Part shown: positions 23,189-37,632 of the stretch, piece after piece
Layout of the letters: the number at the start of each line of letters is the position of its first letter
Position numbering within the stretch: the stretch's first letter is position 1
Assembly (NCBI GenBank): GCA_039938515.1
Contig: JBDUUL010000018.1
Location: 1 to 49,552 of the forward strand
Source: Nitrososphaera sp.
GTDB taxonomy: Archaea > Thermoproteota > Nitrososphaeria > Nitrososphaerales > Nitrososphaeraceae
Direction: 5' to 3'
DNA length: 49,552 nt
Notes under the pieces: generated by a model
Seen by the model: the letters and a program-made list of their open reading frames with translations, nothing else
Databases searched by the model: none
Told to the model about the DNA's origin: nothing
Position numbers and translations under genes: made by a program

Positions 23189-24556
23189 CTACTTGCGAAT
23201 CACGTAAAAGTCGTACACTGGAGCCTTTTTGGAGCTGTTCTTCCTCACCTGGTATTCTATCATTGCGTAAAATGCGGGAAACGTCTCCACCAGGCCGATT
23301 ATGGGACTCAGAACAAGAGTCTGCACATGAATCAAAAGCCTCTTTGCCAAACGCACTTCAGAATGCCGGAGATTCAGGAATAACCCGACCTGGTACGATG
23401 ATAGCCAGACCAGCGAAGTGAACAAGAGCAGGATCCCCACTGCAACGTCCACGGGCCCTAGTTTTACCACGGACTGGAGCATTGATTCCAGTGATATCGA
23501 AGTTATTGCATTTGAGGAAAATGACAGTAGTGCAGAGCCGAATTGATAATTGGTCCGGGGCAGTTCGAGGAGGAAGGGCGCGTAATTGTTAATTGAAATT
23601 GCCACCGAGGCGACTGCGGAAGCAAAGCCCATGAAGTAAGTGACCGATTTGAACATCAGTTTGAATCTGTGCCATGCAGGAAAGCGGGCCATGTTCTGCA
23701 TCGTTCCAAGGACCCACCTTCTCCGCTGGAAAAAGTGGTCTTTCAGGTTCAGGGGCGGCTGCTCGAGCAGCATTCCGCCGTGCCAGCCCATTGAATCCCG
23801 GCCGTAACGCTCGTAGACTTTGTAGCCGAACATCTGGTCCTCGGCGAGAGTTGGGCCGAACTTCCACTCGATTGTATCCTCAACATCCGACCTCACAAGA
23901 AGATTGCTTCCGTGCATGTGCAACGGCGGCGGGTTGGTCATCTGTGACACGCAGTCATAGCACGTGAAAGGACGGATTGACTCGGCAATGGCAGTCATCC
24001 TGTTAGCGCTTTCAAACTTTAGCGGATAGAATATGGGCCCCTCGGCTGCAACGCCCCTGCGTTCGCGGATGAATTTCAGTAATGCAAGCAGGGTCTGCGG
24101 AACCACATAGCTTTCATCGTCCATGTGAAAAATCCAGTACTTGTCGGATGCTTTGGCGTTCTTTCGGCGATGCTCGACCGCGTACTGGAGCGCCCGTCCC
24201 TTCTTGACGGCATTCGTCCGAAATTGCTTGTTTACCACCACGACCTCGCACATGCCGGATAGCGTGCGAATATCTTCCGGGTCGTCAGACACCACGCAGA
24301 CCTGATACGAGTGGTAATTGAGCCTGGCTGCCGCGGACTTTACCGAGTTTATGCCACGGACTACTACCGGAGTTTTTGTCGCAGACCTGGTCGTAATCTG
24401 GAAAATAATCACAGGGTCGTTGTGGACCCGAGTTAGGTCCTTCTCTACGAATATCCTTCTGTTTTGAATTATGCGATGGACCGAAATGGCTGCGATGGGG
24501 ACGTAGGAGAGCCAAAAAAAAGTCGCGATAGAAATCAGAATCAGGTCAAGCAACAA
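23189..24556 (-). CDS. Membrane GT2 glycosyltransferase, egghead-like
   Basis: A 455-residue processive-type family 2 glycosyltransferase. An N-terminal membrane helix (LILISIATFFWLSYVPIAA) precedes the GT-A domain: IIFQITTRSATKTP, VVSDDPEDI, catalytic WIFHMDDESYV (DxD-like), PTLAEDQMFGYKV (general base) and FFQRRRWVLGTMQN (Q/RxxRW acceptor motif). Three or more membrane segments follow. This arrangement is like egghead beta-1,4-mannosyltransferases of animals and archaeal relatives. Donor and acceptor sugars are unknown. Start is TTG at 24556. Four kb from the Pel-like locus, so it may serve the same glycans. Confidence 0.82.
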   Translation of the reverse strand: MLLDLILISIATFFWLSYVPIAAISVHRIIQNRRIFVEKDLTRVHNDPVIIFQITTRSATKTPVVVRGINSVKSAAARLNYHSYQVCVVSDDPEDIRTLSGMCEVVVVNKQFRTNAVKKGRALQYAVEHRRKNAKASDKYWIFHMDDESYVVPQTLLALLKFIRERRGVAAEGPIFYPLKFESANRMTAIAESIRPFTCYDCVSQMTNPPPLHMHGSNLLVRSDVEDTIEWKFGPTLAEDQMFGYKVYERYGRDSMGWHGGMLLEQPPLNLKDHFFQRRRWVLGTMQNMARFPAWHRFKLMFKSVTYFMGFASAVASVAISINNYAPFLLELPRTNYQFGSALLSFSSNAITSISLESMLQSVVKLGPVDVAVGILLLFTSLVWLSSYQVGLFLNLRHSEVRLAKRLLIHVQTLVLSPIIGLVETFPAFYAMIEYQVRKNSSKKAPVYDFYVIRK

Positions 24557-26789: not shown

Positions 26790-27860
26790 GTGGTAAATAA
26801 AACAGTACTTGTCACTGCCGCCGGGAGCATCGTCTCGCAGGGCATAATCAAGGCGTTGAGGCTAGCCAACAAGACGGTTCATGAAACAAATGCCGTCAAC
26901 TACTCGATAGTCGCCACAGACATGAGCCCAACGGCCGCAGGGCTGTACAGGAGCGACTCTGGGCATATTGTTCCGCCGGCCAGTTCGGAGGGATTTATTG
27001 ATGCAGTTGTCAGTTTGTGCAGAAAGAATGCTGTGGACGCGATATTCATCGGCTCAGACGACGAACTACAAAAACTCGCAGAATCCAGAAAGCGGATTGA
27101 GAATGAGTCGGATGCGAAGCTGCTTGTATGCTCCAGCCAGGCGCTTTCAATAGCGCGCGATAAATGGCGCACTTTTGAGTTCTGCAGGGAAAAATCGCTC
27201 CCGGTTGCCCCGACGGCGTTGCCGGAAGATGCTGCGAGCCTGGCAAGCGAGTATGGCTATCCCCTGGTGGTGAAGCCTAGAGAGGGGTATGGGTCGGTGC
27301 ACGTTTACGTGGCAAAGTCTCAGGAGGAAGTCGGCCAGGCCATCGAACGGATCGAAGGCGCATCATGGAAACCCATTGTCCAGAAGTTCATCGGAGGGGA
27401 CGAGTTCACTTCTGGCGTAACGGTCGACCGGAGCGGCAAGTACGCGATGTCTTCAATTTCAATCCGAAAATTTCTAAAACATGGCCAGACCCACAAGGCG
27501 TTTATCGAGGACAACCAATCTGTACGAAAGTCTGCAGAAGAAGTCGCACTCAAGCTCGGAGTAGTCGGACCGGCAAACATCCAGGTGCGGATTGACTCAG
27601 GTCAGCCGGCGGTAATAGAGATAAACCCAAGGTTTTCTGCCACCTGCCCGATGAGGGCGGTAGCGGGTGTAAACGAGCCGGACATTGTCTTCCGCAACGC
27701 TGTCCTTGGGCAGGAGATAAAGGTCGAAGGGTTCAGAAAGCTAGTTTGCCTGCGCTACTGGAATGAAGTATACGTGCAAGAGTCGGCGGTAAAAGACGCA
27801 GAGCTTGCGGGATTCGTCGAAGATGGCAAGAGTGCGTCTTTTGTGCCCGACTACTTCTGA
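26790..27860 (+). CDS. ATP-grasp ligase, CarB/PylC-like
   Basis: A 356-residue ATP-grasp enzyme starting with GTG (the only start compatible with the N-terminal Rossmann-like VNKTVLVTAAGSIVSQGII). The pre-ATP-grasp domain ends near residue 110; the ATP-binding part has ARDKWRTFEFCREKSLPV, YPLVVKPREGYGS and the metal-binding PAVIEINPRFSATCP near residue 280. This is the form of stand-alone carbamoyl-phosphate-synthase-like ligases that join a carboxylate to an amine. The substrates are unknown. Position beside the glycan operon suggests amino-acid or acyl decoration of a sugar, which is inference only. Confidence 0.82.
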   Translation: MVNKTVLVTAAGSIVSQGIIKALRLANKTVHETNAVNYSIVATDMSPTAAGLYRSDSGHIVPPASSEGFIDAVVSLCRKNAVDAIFIGSDDELQKLAESRKRIENESDAKLLVCSSQALSIARDKWRTFEFCREKSLPVAPTALPEDAASLASEYGYPLVVKPREGYGSVHVYVAKSQEEVGQAIERIEGASWKPIVQKFIGGDEFTSGVTVDRSGKYAMSSISIRKFLKHGQTHKAFIEDNQSVRKSAEEVALKLGVVGPANIQVRIDSGQPAVIEINPRFSATCPMRAVAGVNEPDIVFRNAVLGQEIKVEGFRKLVCLRYWNEVYVQESAVKDAELAGFVEDGKSASFVPDYF

Positions 27861-27863
27861 TTT

Positions 27864-27909
27864 TTTGTTTGCCTATACGTAACGGGTTTGTTTGCCTATA
27901 CGTAACGGG
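27864..27909. repeat. Exact 23-bp tandem duplication at the end of the pelG-like gene
   Basis: TTTGTTTGCCTATACGTAACGGG occurs as 27864-27886 and again as 27887-27909 with no difference; in part, the copy is TTTGCCTATACGTAACGGG. The second copy contains the last codons and stop of the minus-strand flippase gene (ARYV-stop); the first copy repeats them just beyond the stop. It looks like a recent replication-slippage duplication in the convergent intergenic gap. Confidence 0.9.
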
Positions 27910-29539
27910 CAAACAGCCTGCTAGCAGCCTTTTTCAGTGTCTCTGACATTACGATCGAGCTTGTAATCGCGGCGAGAGTCGTGCCTGCAAGGTATCCCAG
28001 GGTTATCTTTTCAAAGCCGAACAAGACGGCCATTATCACTCCCCCGGCAATCACTGTCGCGGCTGCAAGGATTGAGATTATGGCAAGCTCCTTCGTTCTG
28101 CCCAGAAAGATCATAAATATTGCGTTTGCAGCAAAGACTGAGAGCATTACCGCGCCTGCTGAAGCATACATCAGAATCCGGTGGCTGACCTCGTTGCCTC
28201 CGATCCTCTCAAGGATAGCAGGGCCGACGACCAAACTCAACAGCGCCGCCACGGAGATTGATACCACCAGGGTCGACACCAGCGTCTTGGCGTAGCTGCG
28301 CCTTATGAACCGGTCAACCTTTCTTATTTCCCGCACCCGCAGGCGTATTGCCTTGTTGTGAGCCATCGCGTATATTGGCTCTGTAAGTATGTATTGAAGG
28401 ATGGCGACGGGTATTATTATGAGAAGCGCCAGATCCGCCCCTGCGTGATACACGGAATTGAAGGCAAGAGGCAGTTGTGCTCCGTTGCTTGCAGTCACTG
28501 TGTGCGGGTTGAAGATCCATGAAAGAATCCTGTCTGCGAATATTATTATGAAGTAGCAGCTTCCGTAAAGAAAGTACGGGAGAGACTCCCAGAGCTGGAC
28601 TGAGTATCGCGATGTCAGCGTTTTGTCGTTTACAGTAAGCGGGCTGTAAAAGTGGGGGGCGTTTCTGGCAACTATGGCGGTAGTGCTGCCTGCAAGCAGC
28701 CTGTGATGATAGTATGCTGCAAAGCCGGAGAGGACGGCAAATGCAGATCCCAGTGCCGCTAGGTACCTTGCAGTCACGTCAGGGATTGTCGGTTGCAGCA
28801 AGTAGAACAGGCCCAGGACCACGGCGAAGGCAATCGAGTAGGATATGGCGATCTGGCGAAGCTTCTTCATTGCATAGAGAACGACATAGCTCAGCCGGTG
28901 GAGCGAGATGGTGACCATTCCTATCGTGGCGATGGAGGCAAGCTGCACGGGTAGCGACCAGTTCTCTGCTGCAAGGTACACAAGGGCTACGGCAACGGAT
29001 AGAATCGCGCCAGCTAGTGCATAGTTTCTCTTGATGCTTCTGCGCACTTCGCCGACATTTGTCTGCGAATAGTAGAATGAAAACAGCCGGTGGAGATTCT
29101 GGGCCATTCCTTCGGTGATTGCGAGCCCCGTAAAGACGCCGGCAAGAAATGCCGTGGTTACGGCGGCAGGCAGTCCCCAGGCCATCCAAAGGGAAACGCC
29201 GGCAACCGCGAGCAGAACGAGCGATCCGATCCAGGGGAACATCATTGTCAGGCTTTCCTTCAGGCGCCTGGTCTTGCTTGACACCGCGAGTTTGCCGGCG
29301 GACCAGTCGATCTCTTTTTCCTCATACGCATCGACAAAGTCATAGACGTATCTCCCAAGGGCTTCAAGGTTTTCAAAACCGTGCTTCTTGGCATCATTAT
29401 CGTTGTATCCGAGGACCTCGAGGAGTACTACTACATCGGCCATGTTGTTCACGTTAGACTGTATCTCTGCTATTGAACGGGCAATCCTGTTGGCAAAGGC
29501 TTTAGACGACGCGGACTGGCCGGCTGCTTCCTGTGCCAT
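27896..29539 (-). CDS. PelG-like polysaccharide flippase
   Basis: A 547-residue integral membrane protein with about 12 membrane segments, preceded by a cytoplasmic domain of about 100 residues (IAEIQSNVNNMADVVVLLEV; RYVYDFVDAYEEKEID). PelG-type MOP transporters move Pel polysaccharide across the membrane; shared traits include GSCYFIIIFADRILSWIFNP, with the acidic residue in a membrane helix, followed by a long loop and LALLIIIPVAILQYIL. A strong Shine-Dalgarno (GGAGGAGGTG) lies 6 nt before the ATG, which directly abuts the epimerase stop. The N-terminal domain is extra compared with bacterial PelG. Confidence 0.78.
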   Translation of the reverse strand: MAQEAAGQSASSKAFANRIARSIAEIQSNVNNMADVVVLLEVLGYNDNDAKKHGFENLEALGRYVYDFVDAYEEKEIDWSAGKLAVSSKTRRLKESLTMMFPWIGSLVLLAVAGVSLWMAWGLPAAVTTAFLAGVFTGLAITEGMAQNLHRLFSFYYSQTNVGEVRRSIKRNYALAGAILSVAVALVYLAAENWSLPVQLASIATIGMVTISLHRLSYVVLYAMKKLRQIAISYSIAFAVVLGLFYLLQPTIPDVTARYLAALGSAFAVLSGFAAYYHHRLLAGSTTAIVARNAPHFYSPLTVNDKTLTSRYSVQLWESLPYFLYGSCYFIIIFADRILSWIFNPHTVTASNGAQLPLAFNSVYHAGADLALLIIIPVAILQYILTEPIYAMAHNKAIRLRVREIRKVDRFIRRSYAKTLVSTLVVSISVAALLSLVVGPAILERIGGNEVSHRILMYASAGAVMLSVFAANAIFMIFLGRTKELAIISILAAATVIAGGVIMAVLFGFEKITLGYLAGTTLAAITSSIVMSETLKKAASRLFARYV

Positions 29540-30529
29540 CTAAGCCACCTCCTCCGGGGCAGTGATTCTGGCAGCAGGCCTCTGCGTTTCTCGCCGGGCT
29601 GCCTCTATCACACTCTTGAGACCCTCCTGGACTGCGAAGCGGGGCTTGTAGCCTAGCACACGCTGGATCTTGTCTATTGAGGCTACCCCGAACTTCATGT
29701 CGCCGGCCCGGGAGGGCATGAACTGGCATGTCACGTCGGTGTATCCGATAAGACCCTTGATTGCCTGGACAAGTTCAAGTATGCTAGTTGCCCTGCCGGA
29801 AGCTACGTTGAATACTTCGCCAACCGCACTCTGCGAATCCATTGCCAGCATGTTGGCCTGCACGATGTCTTCGACATGGACAAAGTCCCGCACCTGTGTC
29901 CCGTCTCCATAGATAACAGGGTTTTCACCCTGAAGCATCTTGTTGACAAATGTCGTTATCACGCCGCTGTAGTCGCTGAGTCGCTGTCTGCGGCCATAGA
30001 CGTTAAAGTACCTTAGCGCTACCACCTCAAGTCCGTAGGTCATGTGGTATGCGTTCAGGTAATTTTCTACCGAGAGTTTTGACGCTCCGTATGGCGAGTT
30101 CGGCCTGCAGGACATAGCCTCCGAAGCGCTTGACCCTTCGATTATTCCATACACCGCAGCTGTAGACGCAAACACCAGCCTCTTTACCCCTCTGCTAACG
30201 CAGAAATTCAGGAGCTCAAGGGTTGTATTCACGTTCACATCGTGCACCAGCAGTGGGTGGGTTACCGATTTAGGCACGCTTGCGATTGCCGCTTCGTGAA
30301 AAACAATGTCGATATTGACATTGGGCAGAAGCGACTGCGCATTGCGTACATCGCCGACGATTACGTGCAGCATGCTAGATTCCTTGTGCGCGGCGAGGTT
30401 GTCAAGAGAGCCGGTCGTCAGGTTGTCAATAACGTATGTTTCAATTCCCCTCGAGAGAAGCTCGTCGACGATATGGCTTCCGATAAAACCTGCCCCTCCC
30501 GTTACAAGCGCCGTATTCACTGCTCTCAT
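29540..30529 (-). CDS. NAD-dependent UDP-sugar 4-epimerase (GalE/PelX-like)
   Basis: A 329-residue extended SDR epimerase. NAD motif GGAGFIGSHIVDEL at the N-terminus, FASTAAVYG, catalytic PNSPYGASKLSVENY (YxxxK), RYFNVYGRRQRL, and the substrate segment ENPVIYGDGTQVRDFVHVED. Enzymes of this type interconvert UDP-Glc/Gal or UDP-GlcNAc/GalNAc; bacterial pel loci contain a similar epimerase that supplies UDP-GalNAc. The ATG shares one base with the pelF-like stop (TAATG) and has a GGAGGTG ribosome site 8 nt upstream, so translation is coupled. Confidence 0.88.
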   Translation of the reverse strand: MRAVNTALVTGGAGFIGSHIVDELLSRGIETYVIDNLTTGSLDNLAAHKESSMLHVIVGDVRNAQSLLPNVNIDIVFHEAAIASVPKSVTHPLLVHDVNVNTTLELLNFCVSRGVKRLVFASTAAVYGIIEGSSASEAMSCRPNSPYGASKLSVENYLNAYHMTYGLEVVALRYFNVYGRRQRLSDYSGVITTFVNKMLQGENPVIYGDGTQVRDFVHVEDIVQANMLAMDSQSAVGEVFNVASGRATSILELVQAIKGLIGYTDVTCQFMPSRAGDMKFGVASIDKIQRVLGYKPRFAVQEGLKSVIEAARRETQRPAARITAPEEVA

Positions 30530-32016
30530 TATGCGTGCACCTCCGCAAACTGGACTGGAAGACTCTGCTTCTGCCCTGTCAGGCGCTCATACTGCTCCCG
30601 GTAGAGCCCCAGGGATTGTTCTATCGTGAACCCTTTGGTTGCCTTGTCAACCGCAGCCCTGCCGAAGTTCTCCCGCAATTGCTTGTCCTGCAGCAACTTG
30701 ACTATTGCTTCGGCAAGTTCCACCGGATGGCTGCTCCGCACGAGTAGCCCGCAGCCATCAAGCGCTTCCCTGATCCCGCCTACGTCCGTCGCCACAATTC
30801 CCCTCCCACAGGCCATCGCCTCGATAATAGCAAAGGGAAATCCTTCCGTTATGCTGCTGATTACGACCACGTCAGCAGAGTTGTATGCGACTTCCGGATC
30901 CTTGACCTTACCTACAAACTGGACATTCTCCTCCAGGTTAAGCGACTTTACGGCGTTGATGCAGCGGAGCGAGTATTCCAGATCAGTCGAGGACCCGTAA
31001 ATGAGACAGAGGATATCAGGGATCCTCTCCTTTACGCGCCGGATTGACTGGACGAGGTTAATGATGTCCTTGAATATGTCGACCCTGCCCACGCACGCCA
31101 CTGTAGGCCGGGCGTTTTCGGGCATGCTGATTGGCCGGAACTTTGAGACATCGACTCCATTGTAGATGACTTTAACCTTCGACGGATCCGCCCCGAGGCT
31201 TGTTTCCCATTTGGCATTGGCATAACAGACAGGGGAGATTACGTCCGAGGCCCAGTAGATGGTCCGGACAATGTTCTGAGAGAACTGCTTCCAAAAGATA
31301 TTGGACGGCTCGTCTCTCAGGTACGCATTGTAGTAAAGCAGGAGTTCCCGAAACGCGACACCGTGTTCAGTAATCATGACGGGCACGCCTGTTTCCATCT
31401 TTGCCGCGACGGCCATCATGGAGGGAAGCCATGCTAGAGACGAATGGATAAGGTCAACTTTGGGGATTTCGATGGCAAGGATCTGCATGTTTCTCTGGAT
31501 TATCTGAAACGCGGTCAGTGCCTCGCGAAGTGTCATCTCCCTGTAAAGCGGGTCTTGCTCAAGATGGCCCAGGAACGTCTCCCAGGCAATGGCACTTTCC
31601 ATGCATTTTCGGCTGTCGTGGTTGCGCAGGAACTTGTGAAGTTGAAGGATTGTATTGGCAAGCCCCGACGGGTCGGTGTTGCTCTCGAGAGCTTGGCTCA
31701 GGAATTTGTCAAAGAGCGGAACGAAGGACCGCGAGATTGCCCTGGAGTCCGTCCTAGCGATCTTGTCCAGCAGGCCGGAATTCTTTTCGCTGTAGAATTC
31801 CTCGAATCTGTGGGACCCGAACAGAGGGACATCGATTACTCTGGAGACGTTGGGGGGAACGGTATAGCGGCCATTCACGTTGGGGTTTGAGAGCATGTTG
31901 ACTACCGTAAAGTCAAAGTCGCTGAGGCTTTCGACGAGGAGCTTTTCCCAAGAGTATACTCCGCCGCTCGTCACGTTGGGATAGCTGTCCCAGTTAACTA
32001 ACAATACCTTTTTCAT
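30529..32016 (-). CDS. PelF-like family 4 glycosyltransferase
   Basis: A 495-residue cytoplasmic GT-B enzyme. PelF-type features: SGGVYSWEKLLVESL near residue 17, YTVPPNVSRVIDVP, a long helical insert, DLIHSSLAWLPSMM, VMITEHGVAFRELLLYYN, then the C-terminal GT4 domain with VIYNGVDVSKFRP, VACVGRVDIFKDI and the ExxxxxxxE motif SSITEGFPFAIIEAMACG. Bacterial PelF uses UDP-sugars to make the Pel polymer. ATG 32016 is chosen because AGGAGG sits 11 nt upstream; ATG 32025 would leave only 2 nt. It overlaps the upstream gene by about 23 bp. BshA, also a GT4 enzyme, is the alternative reading but is shorter. Confidence 0.83.
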   Translation of the reverse strand: MKKVLLVNWDSYPNVTSGGVYSWEKLLVESLSDFDFTVVNMLSNPNVNGRYTVPPNVSRVIDVPLFGSHRFEEFYSEKNSGLLDKIARTDSRAISRSFVPLFDKFLSQALESNTDPSGLANTILQLHKFLRNHDSRKCMESAIAWETFLGHLEQDPLYREMTLREALTAFQIIQRNMQILAIEIPKVDLIHSSLAWLPSMMAVAAKMETGVPVMITEHGVAFRELLLYYNAYLRDEPSNIFWKQFSQNIVRTIYWASDVISPVCYANAKWETSLGADPSKVKVIYNGVDVSKFRPISMPENARPTVACVGRVDIFKDIINLVQSIRRVKERIPDILCLIYGSSTDLEYSLRCINAVKSLNLEENVQFVGKVKDPEVAYNSADVVVISSITEGFPFAIIEAMACGRGIVATDVGGIREALDGCGLLVRSSHPVELAEAIVKLLQDKQLRENFGRAAVDKATKGFTIEQSLGLYREQYERLTGQKQSLPVQFAEVHA

Positions 32017-32659
32017 CGATTGCATTGCCTCCTGATAGGTCGAGTGACCTTGTCACCTCTGACGCGTCAAACGGGCCGTCCCCTTCGTCTGTCTGAAGAG
32101 ACCTTGGTTCGGGCCATAATGGAGCTTTATTTAAAAAGGCATCAACCTCGGCATCAAGCTCCGGAGCATTCTCGATTTTGACTCCGGCGCTCTTTACGTG
32201 TTTGGCATAATCCCGGAGTGTCTGCAAGTCGTCCTCGGCCTTTGCTCCGCTCGCAAACGGGTTTACCCGGGCTTCAAGCGCGCGCAGACTTTTTCGAATG
32301 CTTGAAGCAGAGTCATAATCGTCTGCAAGCACATAATTTTCCAATGCCTCGTTCATTGACCACATGGCTTCCCTAACAGACGCCGCCATCGTCTGCTGCG
32401 CGTTTAGCAGGTAGAGGTTCGCAGCATGCACGTAAAGCTTGTTTGCGCGCTCGCTGTTGCCAATCCGTGAGAGGCACCTCGCCGCGCAGGAGCAGCTAAG
32501 CGCATGTCTTATGATCGATTTTGCCTCCGCCGATTTCTGTGCGTCTTTCAAATAATAAGAAACGGCAGAAACCAGATCTCCGTCGTCTTCGGCCTTTATT
32601 GCATTGAACCAAAGACTAGACTCGTCTGTCAGCTTCTCTAGCCATGTTCTAACCTTCAT
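31994..32659 (-). CDS. Helical-repeat protein, first gene of the Pel-like operon
   Basis: A 221-residue protein, mostly alpha-helical, with TPR/SNAP-like repeats (WFNAIKAEDDGDLVSAVSYY; AARCLSRIGNSERANKLYVH; ALENYVLADDYDSASSIRKS). The C-terminal third is acidic and probably disordered. No signal peptide or membrane helix. As the first gene, overlapping pelF-like, it may scaffold the glycosyltransferase at the flippase; bacterial pel loci also contain TPR proteins, but those are membrane or periplasmic, so equivalence is not shown. Confidence 0.68.
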   Translation of the reverse strand: MKVRTWLEKLTDESSLWFNAIKAEDDGDLVSAVSYYLKDAQKSAEAKSIIRHALSCSCAARCLSRIGNSERANKLYVHAANLYLLNAQQTMAASVREAMWSMNEALENYVLADDYDSASSIRKSLRALEARVNPFASGAKAEDDLQTLRDYAKHVKSAGVKIENAPELDAEVDAFLNKAPLWPEPRSLQTDEGDGPFDASEVTRSLDLSGGNAIDEKGIVS

Positions 32660-32827: not shown

Positions 32828-33529
32828 GTGAACATTCTAGCAATTGGCGCACACCCGGATGACATCGAACTTGGTTGCGGCGGGCTTTTGATCAAGGCAG
32901 CTCGGCAAGGCCATGATGTGTACATGTACACGCTTACCAGGGGAGCAGTCTCGGGAGACCCGGCCCAGCGCTCGAAGGAACTCATGCAATCTGCCAAGTT
33001 CATCGGAGCAAAGGCCCTATGGATCGACAATTTTGACGACACGCGGCTGACTGCAGGAACAGAGCTGATAAACCACATCGAATTTTTCATAAACAAGGCT
33101 GATCCGGACATAATCATAACCCATTCGCTTGGAGATGTTCACCATGATCACAAGGCTGTCGCGTCCTCGACCATTGAGGCTGGCAGGTTTATCCCAAACA
33201 TAATGTCATATGAAATTCCGCTGACCAAGGAATTCAAGCCGCAGGTATTCTACGATATTTCAGACGTCGTCGACGAAAAGGTCGAGCTTATCAAGATATT
33301 CTGGTCCCAGCAGAGCAAGCTGTATCTGAAGGCCAATGCGATAAAGGGTCTGGCAGAATACAGGGCACTGCAGAGCAGGCTGAATACTTCCATAAACTAC
33401 GTCGAAGCTTTCGAGGTGCTAAAGCTTTGCTTTGGGAAGGAATTCAAGCTGTGGAAGGTTCCGAGCGAAAGAATTCCCAAGAACGAAGGGGCAGGCACCA
33501 GGCCCAACGAGATAATCGAGTTCGTCTAA
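32828..33529 (+). CDS. LmbE/PIG-L family N-deacetylase (BshB-like)
   Basis: A 233-residue zinc-dependent deacetylase of the LmbE family, which removes acetyl groups from GlcNAc-type sugars (PIG-L, MshB, BshB). Zinc site: AIGAHPDDIELGCGG at residues 5-19 with His and Asp pair, and DVHHDHKAV near residue 103 for the third ligand. Start is GTG 32828; the nearby ATG at 32806 is out of frame. The BshC-like gene starts only 22 bp after its stop, so the two are one operon, the same pairing idea as BshB-BshC in bacillithiol synthesis. Confidence 0.88.
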   Translation: MNILAIGAHPDDIELGCGGLLIKAARQGHDVYMYTLTRGAVSGDPAQRSKELMQSAKFIGAKALWIDNFDDTRLTAGTELINHIEFFINKADPDIIITHSLGDVHHDHKAVASSTIEAGRFIPNIMSYEIPLTKEFKPQVFYDISDVVDEKVELIKIFWSQQSKLYLKANAIKGLAEYRALQSRLNTSINYVEAFEVLKLCFGKEFKLWKVPSERIPKNEGAGTRPNEIIEFV

Positions 33530-33551: not shown

Positions 33552-35231
33552 ATGGAAAATCCACAGACGACTGCAGCAGAAGCCGGCTCGATGGCCGGAG
33601 GCCAATCCCCAGTCGCAAAGTTTGCCGGGATAAACGATCCGGCCATCAGGGAATTTGTCTCAAGCATTCCCCATGACTTTCAGCAGACGGCAGCCATCCT
33701 AGCAGGTGCGAAATTTTTCGCCCCTGACAGGGTTTTGCAGAACAGGCTTGCCCTTGCCAGCAAGGCCCATTCCTTTCACGATGGCGCACAGACCAATAGC
33801 CAACGAGTGCAGGAAAGCATTTCCCGCCTGCAAGAGCCCGAAACCCTGGTCCTTGTTGCGACGCATCAACCCAATCTGTTCTCCTATGGCGGGATATTCA
33901 AGAAAGTAATACTGCTCGAAGCACTCAAGAGCGAAGTAGAGAGGCTTTCAGGCGGGCAGGTCAGCATCGTGAACCTCTTTCTCGTTGTCGACCATGACTT
34001 TCTGGACGAGACATGGATACGCGTGGCGCAGCTTCCGAGCCTGCAGAGCTCCGATGGCATCATGGACTTGCGTCTGCCCATCAAAGAGTCGCAGAGATGG
34101 AAGATGGTCTGCAACGTAATGCCGCCGGCGCATTCTGTCTTGTCTCACTGGAAGTCACAGTTGAAAAATTGGATAAGGTCCAACTCGCTGACAATCGCGG
34201 AGCGCAGGGAGCTATTTGGCAACCTGGAAGACCTCTGGTCCGAGTACGAGGCAGCTTACGCGGATGCCCGCTCCTACTCTGACCTTAACGCATTTTTCAT
34301 GTCGCGGATCGTAAATGCACGATGGAACTATTCGACAGTGTTTGTCAGGCTCTCTGAGCTGTCACAGATTTTCGCCGATGGATTTACTTTCCTGCTTGCC
34401 AATTTCAGAAAATATTCTGAAGGGCTTAGAAGGGCGGAGCGGGTCTGCATGGCCCATGGCATTGACACGGGCATAAGCGCGTCATCGCACCTTCACGCGC
34501 CGCTTTGGCTCCACTGCTCCTGCGGAAGCAAGACCTCGCCAAGACTCCGTGCAATTGGCAGAGAAATGGCCCTCGAGGGCTCGTGCATTTCGTGCGGCAA
34601 GCAGCTTCAGCTTGGCCTTGGAGACGCCGACCACATCGACATCAAGGAATCAGCGGGGCTGCTATCGCCAAAAGCAATCCCAATCCCGTTGCTTCTGGCA
34701 AGGGAAATCGGAATTTCAGGCTATGCCTCCGGCACCGGTGGACTAGGATACCTTGTCGATGGACAGGTGATAGCCAAGGAGCTGGGCATCAAGCTTCCCA
34801 CCACCCTTTTGTGGGCCTCCAAGGACAATTACATCGGCATAGGCCAGAGAGAGGCGGCTGCCGTATCGTCAAGGCTCAATGACCCTATCGTGTCGGCAAT
34901 AGCGGCGCTCAACGGAAGGCATCAGCGGCTTGAAAACCTCATACGGCCGCTCCTGCAAGAGCGTGCAGCAGCCGTCGGAACGCCGGGCGCCATGAAAGAC
35001 GTGCTTGACCGCATCTTTGCACTCAAGCAGCAGCAGAGAGAGATAAGATCGGAACTATCTGGTCTAACCAAAGTGCGTAACATACTGACATTGTCGCCTT
35101 GTTTTGTGGATTACGCGGTAAACTTTGGCGTCGAACACTCGGAAATGAAGTGGAGAAAACACCTGGTCGAAAGGGGCTCTCTTGCCGGCTCGGTAATGAT
35201 GCAAGCAGCCAGCGTCGCGGCAGCGTCTTAG
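33552..35231 (+). CDS. BshC-like putative cysteine/amino-acid ligase with zinc ribbon
   Basis: A 559-residue protein. Residues 97-155 read like the BshC core: LVLVATHQPNLFSYGGIFKK followed by SIVNLFLVVDHDFLDETWI, matching BshC's 'VVTGQQ-GLxGGPLYTxxK' and 'FWIAxEDHDxxE' pattern. BshC adds Cys to GlcN-malate in bacillithiol synthesis. Unlike bacterial BshC it has a zinc-ribbon-like insert (C322, C324, C345, C348) and a coiled-coil toward the C-terminus (ALKQQQREIRSEL). The match is by eye and partial; another amine-acceptor ligase is possible. It follows an LmbE deacetylase, which would expose the amine to be ligated. Confidence 0.6.
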   Translation: MENPQTTAAEAGSMAGGQSPVAKFAGINDPAIREFVSSIPHDFQQTAAILAGAKFFAPDRVLQNRLALASKAHSFHDGAQTNSQRVQESISRLQEPETLVLVATHQPNLFSYGGIFKKVILLEALKSEVERLSGGQVSIVNLFLVVDHDFLDETWIRVAQLPSLQSSDGIMDLRLPIKESQRWKMVCNVMPPAHSVLSHWKSQLKNWIRSNSLTIAERRELFGNLEDLWSEYEAAYADARSYSDLNAFFMSRIVNARWNYSTVFVRLSELSQIFADGFTFLLANFRKYSEGLRRAERVCMAHGIDTGISASSHLHAPLWLHCSCGSKTSPRLRAIGREMALEGSCISCGKQLQLGLGDADHIDIKESAGLLSPKAIPIPLLLAREIGISGYASGTGGLGYLVDGQVIAKELGIKLPTTLLWASKDNYIGIGQREAAAVSSRLNDPIVSAIAALNGRHQRLENLIRPLLQERAAAVGTPGAMKDVLDRIFALKQQQREIRSELSGLTKVRNILTLSPCFVDYAVNFGVEHSEMKWRKHLVERGSLAGSVMMQAASVAAAS

Positions 35232-36009: not shown

Positions 36010-37485
36010 CTAGACTATCTGCTGTAGCACGAGATCGTTTTGCGGCGGCGTAAACACCATTGCAAAGACTGAAGAAGATGGGACAATCGTCTGAAGAATC
36101 AGGGTTCCGTTGACCATGTTCAATCGCAGATGAATGTCGGAGATTTCAGAAAAGTGATCAAGAGCTCGCGAGTCGGAAGTGCGAACCACTGCCAGAAGCA
36201 GATGTTTGTTCGACCGTATGCGAGAGGTGAGTTGTCGTGGTAGAGTGGCACCGGCGGCGCCCATACCGATTTCTTCCAGGAGCGACTGTCCGCCTGCGAT
36301 AGCAAACAGTGGGCGGTCGCCAAAAGCCCTGCTGAGCTTCTCGACAGCATCAATGTACTCCGACCCTTTCGACTTGCTTCCGGTCATGATGTAATCGGGC
36401 GGGTCCTTGGCTTCGGGCCGGCCGGCAGCGGCGAACACGCGAAGTGCGTTTTTGGTCTTTCTCTTGTCTGGCTCCGCGGGTATGAATTGGCTCAGAAACC
36501 TGTATGCAAGTACTGGATCCATCGAGTCAAAAGGATCGACGAGGACGGGATTGCCCCTTTGCAGATAACCCGAGATTGGCCTGCCCAGAAACTCGAGAGC
36601 TGCCCGCGTTGTCACATGCTGGCGCAGTTCAACAAGCACTACTCCAGCAAGGGGGAACCCGGTTCCGATTGCTTCATCAAGGCCCGGGTAGGATGTCGGT
36701 ATGTTTGCGGAGGGATGCGATGCTTTTGTCGGGCCATTTAATTGCGGCGAAACGGCCTTTGGTTTTTGTCTAGTCTTTTCTGCTTCCTTGGGAAGGAATG
36801 CCAGCGGAACAAAAGGAGAAATGCAACGAAACATTGTGCCCTCGAGCGTGTAAAAATATGACGGCCTGTTTATCCTCACGCCCCTCATCTTGAGCAAGGT
36901 CAGCTCTCTGAGCCTCGCACCATCGTGATGCACCTGTTTTAGTTCAACAATCCCGTCAACCAGAAAGTCGAGGGTTGTATCGCTTGGGTGCTCGCTGATA
37001 AAGACCAGTTTCGCGCCAGCCCTTTCCCGCCAGGTCTGGAGGACGCGTTCGTTGTTCAGGCGAGCCTCCTTATCCATGAAGGAGGCAATGGCATCCCAGC
37101 TGTCGATAATAATCACGGGTGACTTGATGTCCATCAACTGGTTTGTAATGCGCTCAAAGAGCGATTCAGGCTCGTCGAGTCGGGCGTCTTCAAAGCTTGC
37201 GGGGACGGCAGTGGAATGCTCGGCTGAGTCTTCTGCCGGCAACGAAGTCGTGTTCACAAACGAATCCAGCCACGGATAATACTGAAAGAGCTGCTTTGGC
37301 GATGTCCTGGTCGAAATATAAAAGAACTTGCTTTGCCTCTCAAGCGCGCGGAGGATTGTCAGTGACAGTGTTGTTTTTCCCGTGCCTGCGAGGCCCTTGA
37401 TAAGAAGAGAGTATGTGTCTCTCTTAATAAACTTGACAAGCTCGTCTGGCATGAATGAAAAATAGTCCACAGACTCTTCAGCCAT
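36010..37485 (-). CDS. GvpD/KaiC-like ATPase with a degenerate second half
   Basis: A 491-residue RecA-fold protein. The first half has SLLIKGLAGTGKTTLSLTIL (Walker A near residue 33), FFYISTRTSPKQLFQYYPWL and SPVIIIDSWDAIASFM (Walker B), as in GvpD-type P-loop proteins. The second half repeats the fold (SYPGLDEAIGTGFPLAGVVLV; DRPLFAIAGGQSLLEEIG) but has no GKT motif, so it is probably non-catalytic. GvpD regulates gas-vesicle genes in haloarchaea; no gas-vesicle genes are here, so another regulatory role is likely. ATG 37485 is preferred to TTG 37503. Confidence 0.8.
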   Translation of the reverse strand: MAEESVDYFSFMPDELVKFIKRDTYSLLIKGLAGTGKTTLSLTILRALERQSKFFYISTRTSPKQLFQYYPWLDSFVNTTSLPAEDSAEHSTAVPASFEDARLDEPESLFERITNQLMDIKSPVIIIDSWDAIASFMDKEARLNNERVLQTWRERAGAKLVFISEHPSDTTLDFLVDGIVELKQVHHDGARLRELTLLKMRGVRINRPSYFYTLEGTMFRCISPFVPLAFLPKEAEKTRQKPKAVSPQLNGPTKASHPSANIPTSYPGLDEAIGTGFPLAGVVLVELRQHVTTRAALEFLGRPISGYLQRGNPVLVDPFDSMDPVLAYRFLSQFIPAEPDKRKTKNALRVFAAAGRPEAKDPPDYIMTGSKSKGSEYIDAVEKLSRAFGDRPLFAIAGGQSLLEEIGMGAAGATLPRQLTSRIRSNKHLLLAVVRTSDSRALDHFSEISDIHLRLNMVNGTLILQTIVPSSSVFAMVFTPPQNDLVLQQIV

Positions 37486-37632
37486 GCGCTCAGACAAAGG
37501 CAACCATGGTAGAAATTATGATTATGTAAATCTATCCGTTCAATTCACGCGTAATTGCTGCGACACCGGTTTCTGAATTCATATTCTAGTCGATTATTAG
37601 TTAATATTCTGCATAGATGGGATGCTTCAGGA

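Follow-up and report, generated by a model that had tools for sequence, protein, structure and literature searches.

A PelF-PelG-type gene cluster in Nitrososphaera as a candidate archaeal exopolysaccharide synthase-exporter

A four-gene cluster and its conservation

The window considered here is a stretch of 49,552 nucleotides from Nitrososphaera sp. (GenBank assembly GCA_039938515.1, contig JBDUUL010000018.1), belonging to a genome of 2.56 Mb in 24 contigs that is 99.8% complete (G000). Between positions 27896 and 32659 it holds four tightly packed minus-strand open reading frames for a helical-repeat protein resembling tetratricopeptide-repeat (TPR) proteins, a PelF-like glycosyltransferase of family GT4, a GalE-type short-chain dehydrogenase/reductase (SDR) and a PelG-like exporter, the last being the only PelG match in the genome (Table 1). 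We read the cluster as an archaeal PelFG-type exopolysaccharide synthase-exporter, the product of which would be a polymer rich in N-acetylgalactosamine (GalNAc) that is trimmed by a secreted glycoside hydrolase of family GH135, and we give this reading a probability of roughly two in three.

The first two genes overlap by 32 bp, or by 23 bp if the methionine at 32016, where the PelF orthologues start, is taken as the first residue, one base is common to the PelF stop and the epimerase start (TAATG), and the epimerase stop directly abuts the PelG start with 0 bp between them. An earlier note on this DNA had listed a 1-bp overlap, a zero gap and strong Shine-Dalgarno sites, and these junctions and all three sites were seen again here; reading the sequence directly, we found no evident Shine-Dalgarno site upstream of gene 1.

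Table 1. Features of the cluster and of its two flanks, with positions in the window.
Feature	Position	Strand	Size and basis
Gene 1, soluble TPR/SNAP-like helical-repeat protein	31994-32659	-	221 aa; upstream of pelF, kept
Gene 2, PelF-like GT4 glycosyltransferase, likely polymerase	30529-32025	-	498 aa; PelF and DUF3492 profiles
Gene 3, GalE-type SDR, likely UDP-GlcNAc/UDP-GalNAc 4-epimerase	29540-30529	-	329 aa; SDR motifs
Gene 4, PelG-like MOP-fold exporter	27896-29539	-	547 aa; Pfam PelG and predicted fold
Extra N-terminal domain of the PelG-like protein (~residues 1-95)	29255-29539	-	hhalign
Shine-Dalgarno AGGAGG ahead of pelF	32028-32033	-	read from sequence
Shine-Dalgarno GGAGGT ahead of the epimerase gene	30539-30544	-	read from sequence
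Shine-Dalgarno GGAGGAGGTGG ahead of pelG	29545-29555	-	read from sequence
ATP-grasp protein (PRK12767-like), convergent conserved neighbour	26790-27860	+	adjoins pelG in most loci
PIG-L deacetylase, divergent conserved neighbour in Nitrososphaeraceae	32828-33529	+	Pfam PIG-L 84.2 bits

Our genome set consisted of 151 genomes, the host genome and 150 relatives. PelF was found at E < 1e-30 in 12 of these and PelG orthologues in the same 12, with identities to the window proteins of 52-71% for PelF and 37-60% for PelG in the 11 other genomes (a partial PelG-like match in G039, with E 6.9e-4 and two internal stops, was left out of the 12). Because these orthologues are conserved in 11 other genomes with the same gene order, a chance arrangement can be excluded. 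A scan of named genomes (Nitrososphaera, Nitrososphaeraceae, Nitrosotalea, Thaumarchaeota and Nitrososphaerales) returned 21 loci, nine of them duplicates and 12 new, and together with the window, the 11 relatives and two further genomes this made 26 distinct Nitrososphaerales loci, 24 of which have the order TPR-PelF-SDR-PelG on one strand. The G120 operon is divided between two contigs in a manner consistent with the usual order; in G135 the SDR gene is found on the opposite side, and the contig does not reach gene 1. Ca. Nitrosotalea devanaterra is among the carriers of the operon.

Across the phylum, an alignment of PelG matched 11 of 398 genomes, seven of them Nitrososphaerales and four, more weakly, in other families. 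In these four deeper Thermoproteota loci a PelF of 35-37% identity adjoins a PelG-like protein, a gene-1 homologue precedes the pair in three of the four, and the three PelG-like proteins that were scanned (of four) all pass Pfam PelG. The TPR-PelF-PelG core thus extends into the deeper Thermoproteota. In one deeper locus (L139) an SDR and a second PelF-like GT4 follow the PelG-like protein. Such second transferases near the PelF-PelG pair were seen at L138:183-1535 (205 bits) and L139:6459-7817 (191 bits), both over the NCBIfam PelF cut-off, and these loci are perhaps a two-transferase version of the system.

The PelF-like, GalE-type and PelG-like proteins

A profile search placed gene 2 over the curated cut-offs of NCBIfam PelF (NF038011, 148.3 bits, cut-off 100) and Pfam DUF3492 (109.7 bits, cut-off 23.3), with PelF as the best family match, in agreement with the PelF-like GT4 proposed earlier. 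A canonical PelF scores 688 bits with the same model, far above the archaeal protein, and of the Pel core in a thaumarchaeon that the earlier note had described, the PelF/PelG core therefore stands as that of a Pel-like system rather than of Pel itself. Residues R314, K319, E394 and E402, which we take to be the catalytic set of GT4/PelF, are invariant in 11/11 sequences, and the relatives of the protein with solved structures are general GT4 enzymes only.

The best NCBIfam match of gene 3 is galE at 231 bits, which is under the cut-off of 262, and Pfam Epimerase matches at 219 bits; the glycine-rich NAD motif and the catalytic Y147/K151 of the SDR family are invariant among the orthologues. 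Residue 281, presumably the gatekeeper site that admits hexosamines, is glycine in 12/12 orthologues and serine in three aligned PDB chains. The earlier description as a GalE/PelX-like epimerase holds for the GalE-type SDR, and its PelX-like part is reduced to the small residue at this presumed site. From its sequence, gene 3 is likely to be a 4-epimerase acting on UDP-N-acetylglucosamine (UDP-GlcNAc) and UDP-GalNAc.

Gene 4 matches Pfam PelG (PF16933) at 49.1 bits (cut-off 29) over residues 102-538 and no other Pfam family. The profile of the archaeal PelG proteins aligns with five canonical PelG proteins at a probability of 91% (E 8.9e-7), the canonical proteins joining the alignment only from about residue 90 on, and the predicted model (mean predicted local distance difference test score, pLDDT, 77) has the MOP fold and matches the structures of MATE, MurJ and WzxE proteins (best E 1.5e-5); a sequence search gave no relatives with solved structures. 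The PelG-like MOP flippase of the earlier note is thus borne out by family and by predicted fold, and the outcome named there as fatal to the idea, in which only generic GT4 enzymes and O-antigen flippases would be matched, did not occur, as PelF and PelG are the best matches. The N-terminal domain resembles the N-terminus of a membrane protein encoded beside PelF in Deinococcus and Streptomyces (hhalign probability 94%, E 1.2e-7, 57 columns), and the deeper archaeal PelG proteins match that membrane protein over the greater part of its sequence (90%, E 1.6e-6). Canonical PelG and the Deinococcus-type protein have no direct match (probability 0.1%) and are linked only through the archaeal proteins, which, matching both, form a bridge between the two types found in bacteria.

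The Wzx and MurJ lipid flippases have the MOP fold too, WzxE and MurJ are among the matches of the model, and GT4 enzymes commonly build lipid-linked glycans, so that PelF and the SDR might instead build a lipid-linked oligosaccharide which the MOP protein flips for N-glycosylation of the S-layer. We consider this improbable, since the protein matches no curated flippase family other than PelG, the scanned neighbours include nothing AglB- or Wzy-like, the operon is patchy (12/151 genomes) when one would expect glycosylation of the S-layer to be widespread, and the link to GH135 described below would be left unexplained. The PelFG-type polymer synthase-exporter, by comparison, is an identity suggested jointly by family, predicted fold and operon evidence.

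The first gene

Gene 1 is under the cut-off of every Pfam and NCBIfam profile and has no Foldseek match under E 0.001. Its AlphaFold model is an all-helical repeat (mean pLDDT 78) with the TPR proteins LGN and Sec17/SNAP as the best structural matches (108-126 residues aligned, highest Z 11.9), a score that unrelated helical repeats can reach through a common arrangement. Pfam TPR_12 is matched over its cut-off by a distant homologue (L141:600-1079; 38.1 bits, cut-off 30.1), and the helical-repeat first gene of the earlier note can now be described as a probable TPR-type protein that is conserved with the operon. It occupies the slot before pelF that pelE, also a repeat-type protein, holds in bacterial pelDEFG operons. 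We rejected a divergent PelE, as the profile comparison with five PelE proteins gave a probability of 0.1% and no similarity; a transmembrane-like segment is absent from 10/11 gene-1 proteins, and each of the five PelE proteins has at least one.

Association with GH135 and GlmS

Spherulin4 (PF12138, the GH135 family) is over its cut-off in 15/151 genomes, which include all 12 pelFG-positive genomes and 3 of the 139 negative ones, and both are confined to one common set of 6 genera out of 49. Fisher tests, all of which ignore kinship, gave p values of 2.4e-15 for genomes, 7e-8 for genera and 4e-4 within the genus of the window, and among the 88 near-complete genomes Spherulin4 is found in 5/5 positives and 1/83 negatives (p 1.5e-7, again ignoring kinship). 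Outside the Nitrososphaeraceae, Spherulin4 genes adjoin pelG (131-149 bits to PF12138 in the first four tested); 16/19 such loci have Spherulin4 within the fetched stretch and 14/19 have glmS, which in 12 of these 14 is divergent beside gene 1. Three of the locus GlmS proteins and the copy of the host genome pass TIGR01135 (cut-off 418 bits, with a GlmS score of 619). The host genome has four Spherulin4 copies, none linked to the operon and one lying ~1.4 kb from a glmS gene.

The archaeal Spherulin4 proteins match the structures of Aspergillus clavatus Sph3 (5d6t/5c5g) at E 9e-13, with the best host copy reaching 1.7e-17 to 5d6t and 2e-17 to 5c5g, and many of the sequences have, by eye, N-termini like those of signal peptides. 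The GIFFDE motif and the equivalent of E222 could be aligned with Sph3: among 14 archaeal sequences the first acidic residue is D in 14/14, the second is E or D in 12/14, and the E222-equivalent is E in 12/14 and D in 2/14 (positions were taken from the alignment, as a regular-expression search missed most genes). We take the other acidic residues of Sph3 to be Asp166 and Glu167. This is unlike the account in PMC12054363, where Glu222 is named and the other residue is printed as Asp196. Sph3 is an endo-alpha-1,4-N-acetylgalactosaminidase that cuts GalNAc-GalNAc links in acetylated regions (PMC8546845), and it disrupts the Pel-dependent aggregates of S. intermedius (PMC12345266).

Because GH135 co-occurs with pelFG, and the operon is bordered by GH135 and glmS genes in most Nitrososphaerales outside the Nitrososphaeraceae, the sequence evidence points to a polymer of the GalNAc type. 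These two links were absent from the earlier note, and the case for the identity of the sugar depends mainly on them. In the pelFG-negative G016, from the genus of the window, we observed only partial Spherulin4 genes (including C16:16624-17054, C70:30825-31322 and C88:9054-9242), three of the four matches having an internal stop; these are maybe remnants left after loss of the system.

Relatives of PelF and the PelD-less bacterial clusters

A PelF tree of 31 rows placed the archaeal operon proteins (ten from Nitrososphaerales and three from deeper Thermoproteota) in one clade with a support of 98/95, separate from canonical Pel and from a Deinococcus/Streptomyces group; the branching order of these three groups is not fixed by the tree, and the two second-copy archaeal GT4 rows fall outside the operon clade. 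The patchy distribution of the system could suggest that a pel operon was recently acquired from bacteria. A single archaeal clade that includes the deep Thermoproteota and lies apart from both bacterial groups argues instead against recent import, and the layout and the PelG N-terminal domain differ from those of pel, so that we hold a recent transfer to be very unlikely.

The best-ranked plasmid-borne relatives of PelF are from Deinococcus and Streptomyces (30-32% identity), with a Thermus protein at 34% over 64% of the query. Seven PelD-less bacterial clusters (L065-L068 and L123-L125) were fetched out of 692 records with any match. On these plasmids, from Deinococcus, Streptomyces, Kocuria and Thermus, the gene after PelF encodes a membrane protein that has the N-terminal domain of the archaeal PelG (L065:8481-9875, L066:8482-9888, L067:8458-10008, L068:8005-9267 and L123:8575-9867), and 5/7 clusters have an SDR downstream, 5/7 an endo-alpha-1,4-polygalactosaminidase and 2/7 a Spherulin4. 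They differ from the archaeal set in that the membrane protein has no Pfam PelG match (four tested), no TPR gene is annotated before PelF, PelF belongs to a separate tree group, and most have added nucleotidyltransferase and oxidoreductase genes. Judged by sequence, these PelF-adjacent membrane proteins appear to form a PelG-like family of exporters not yet described.

Such added genes suggest other sugars, and with the archaeal PelF clade apart from both bacterial types and the SDR scoring below the GalE cut-off, the archaeal synthase might make a different, non-GalNAc polymer, its likeness to Pel being limited to the machinery. We think this unlikely in view of the co-occurrence of GH135, the adjacency of GlmS and the polygalactosaminidase genes that the Deinococcus/Streptomyces-type clusters have too, and we continue to prefer a GalNAc-rich product.

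Neighbouring genes

In most loci the ATP-grasp gene and pelG converge, and its product could possibly be an accessory; as a dedicated part it was rejected because it is also present in 27 pelFG-negative genomes. The PIG-L gene, rejected likewise (16 negative genomes), lies beside gene 1 in 7/7 Nitrososphaeraceae loci and elsewhere is mostly not adjacent. Its BshB1-like product is 88-90% identical among pelFG-positive Nitrososphaeraceae, and the gene is probably a separate unit.

This neighbour raises the question of a small-thiol pathway resembling that of bacillithiol, with PelF as BshA, PIG-L as BshB and the protein after PIG-L (33552-35231, plus strand) as BshC. The corresponding scores are 88.5 bits for BshA (cut-off 273.7), 95 bits for BshB1 and 18.9 bits for the BshC N-terminal domain, all under their cut-offs. 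Gene 2 scores higher with the PelF model than with BshA, PIG-L occurs without pelFG and away from gene 1 as described above, and neither PelG nor GH135 would be explained, all of which makes this pathway scarcely credible beside a PelFG-type synthase.

A number of other genes were observed nearby. A family-2 glycosyltransferase (23189-24556, minus strand; Glyco_trans_2_3, 52 bits) stays close to the operon in those Nitrososphaeraceae loci that extend to it, Nitrosotalea has a WbqC-like gene in the vicinity of PIG-L (L037:2189-2896), and in two Nitrososphaera loci an MG2-domain protein with weak Ig-like matches is encoded between pelG and the ATP-grasp gene (L033:12628-13572 and L034:7834-8778). 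The window has a KaiC/GvpD-like ATPase near the operon (36010-37503, minus strand), and in deep Thermoproteota KaiC-like ATPases adjoin pelFG (L138:6097-9779, L139:1191-1910 and L140:10218-13250), with KaiC-Arf-like GTPase fusions in L138 and L140 and a Roadblock/LC7 protein in L138. These ATPases are possibly a control module that replaces cyclic di-GMP (c-di-GMP).

A proposed mechanism and its weighing

In the mechanism we propose, the epimerase would convert UDP-GlcNAc to UDP-GalNAc, and PelF, to judge from its family and catalytic residues, would build the sugar chain at the cytoplasmic side. The MOP-fold PelG would then move the chain across the single membrane. The soluble TPR protein, from its position and type of fold, may tether PelF to PelG and so do the assembly job of PelD and PelE without c-di-GMP. 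A secreted GH135, encoded beside the operon or elsewhere in the genome, would trim the exported acetylated alpha-1,4-GalNAc-rich polymer, which might serve as a matrix or capsule for attachment or aggregation.

Several points weigh against this proposal. No polymer has been seen. NF038011 also gives 191 and 205 bits to the clearly different second GT4 of two deep archaea, which shows that its cut-off is lax and that passing it is no proof of PelF function. In a whole-genome search just 2 of the 12 genomes that have a PelG orthologue reached the PF16933 cut-off, so membership of PelG is marginal and the curated family barely reaches the clade. The gatekeeper argument for the epimerase substrate takes a presumed site as its starting point. 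Spherulin4 is also present in three pelFG-negative genomes (G016, G107 and G114), did not turn up in the four short loci from deeper Thermoproteota, and, like GlmS, was found in 0/7 of the fetched Nitrososphaeraceae loci, the window included. GalNAc as the sugar is an argument from association and the main point of weakness.

More tentatively, and with rather less than an even chance in our estimate, the system may represent an ancient c-di-GMP-free Pel synthase in archaea, with the TPR protein, PelF and N-extended PelG across the Thermoproteota and the epimerase and GH135 in ammonia oxidisers. If so, Pel-type alpha-GalNAc polymers would be a trait of archaea and bacteria alike, PelD control would have been added later in bacteria to a simpler core of PelF and PelG, and this core would also be preserved in Deinococcota and Actinomycetota.

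We found no description of an archaeal Pel in the literature searched, outside of which most subscription journals lie. The available text of two Pel surveys (PMC7112168 and PMC7112194) has no word beginning 'archaea', and a paper on anaerobic methanotrophic archaea (ANME) speaks, in the part available, of bacterial partners. Ammonia-oxidising archaea form biofilms, and their exopolysaccharide genes are described only generally in the available portions of PMC7554672, PMC11559005, PMC12448741 and PMC11561398; the operon gives a specific and testable chemistry for part of these genes, predicting that some archaea make a sticky amino-sugar polymer similar to Pel, for which existing reagents (Sph3 and the anti-(GalNAc)3 antibody) could be used. 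It also separates a minimal PelF-PelG core from bacterial c-di-GMP control, and the proposed TPR scaffold offers a way to study the synthase without PelD.

Comparison with known systems

The export of Pel through the outer membrane by PelB and PelC is not expected in a single-membrane archaeon. PelD (PF16963) was over its cut-off in 0/12 positive genomes, a result of unproven sensitivity as the control set also gave 0/14; GGDEF (PF00990) was over cut-off in 0/18 genomes, compared with 8/14 in the control set, and GH114 (PF03537) in 0/12 pelFG-positive genomes (GH166 lay outside the search). The earlier note had described the system as lacking GGDEF and PelD, which agrees with these searches, with the PelD control being uninformative. 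Polysaccharide deacetylase (PF01522) was rejected as the missing PelA activity, as it is present in 87/151 genomes and does not track pelFG. In bacteria, PelDEFG form a complex in which PelE is a predicted interaction module (PMC12345266, PMC13254593), the Gram-positive operon pelDEADAFG has neither PelB nor PelC and galE and glmS lie near pel in some species (PMC7112168), and operons with PelFG only have been noted in Gram-positives (PMC7112194).

The archaeal set is like Pel (pelABCDEFG and pelDEADAFG) in having the PelF and PelG families within one operon, a gene for a putative interaction module before pelF, and associated hydrolases that cleave alpha-1,4-GalNAc. It differs in having no PelD, GGDEF or GH114 over cut-off and no recognisable PelE, in the epimerase between PelF and PelG, in the extra N-terminal domain of PelG, and in a hydrolase that is of the GH135 type and outside the operon. 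It would work in the manner of Pel but, with no PelD over the cut-off, falls outside that system as defined, and from its sequences it is Pel-like, not canonical Pel. A comparable accessory set is seen in the pel cluster of Paraburkholderia (L122), where polygalactosaminidase, galE and glmS follow pelG. The galactosaminogalactan system of Aspergillus (Sph3/GH135 and Ega3/GH114) has the same GH135 family and catalytic motif as the archaeal proteins. The MOP-superfamily flippases (MurJ, WzxE and MATE) have a predicted fold in common with the archaeal PelG, whereas the archaeal protein has PelG as its curated family and an added N-terminal non-membrane domain.

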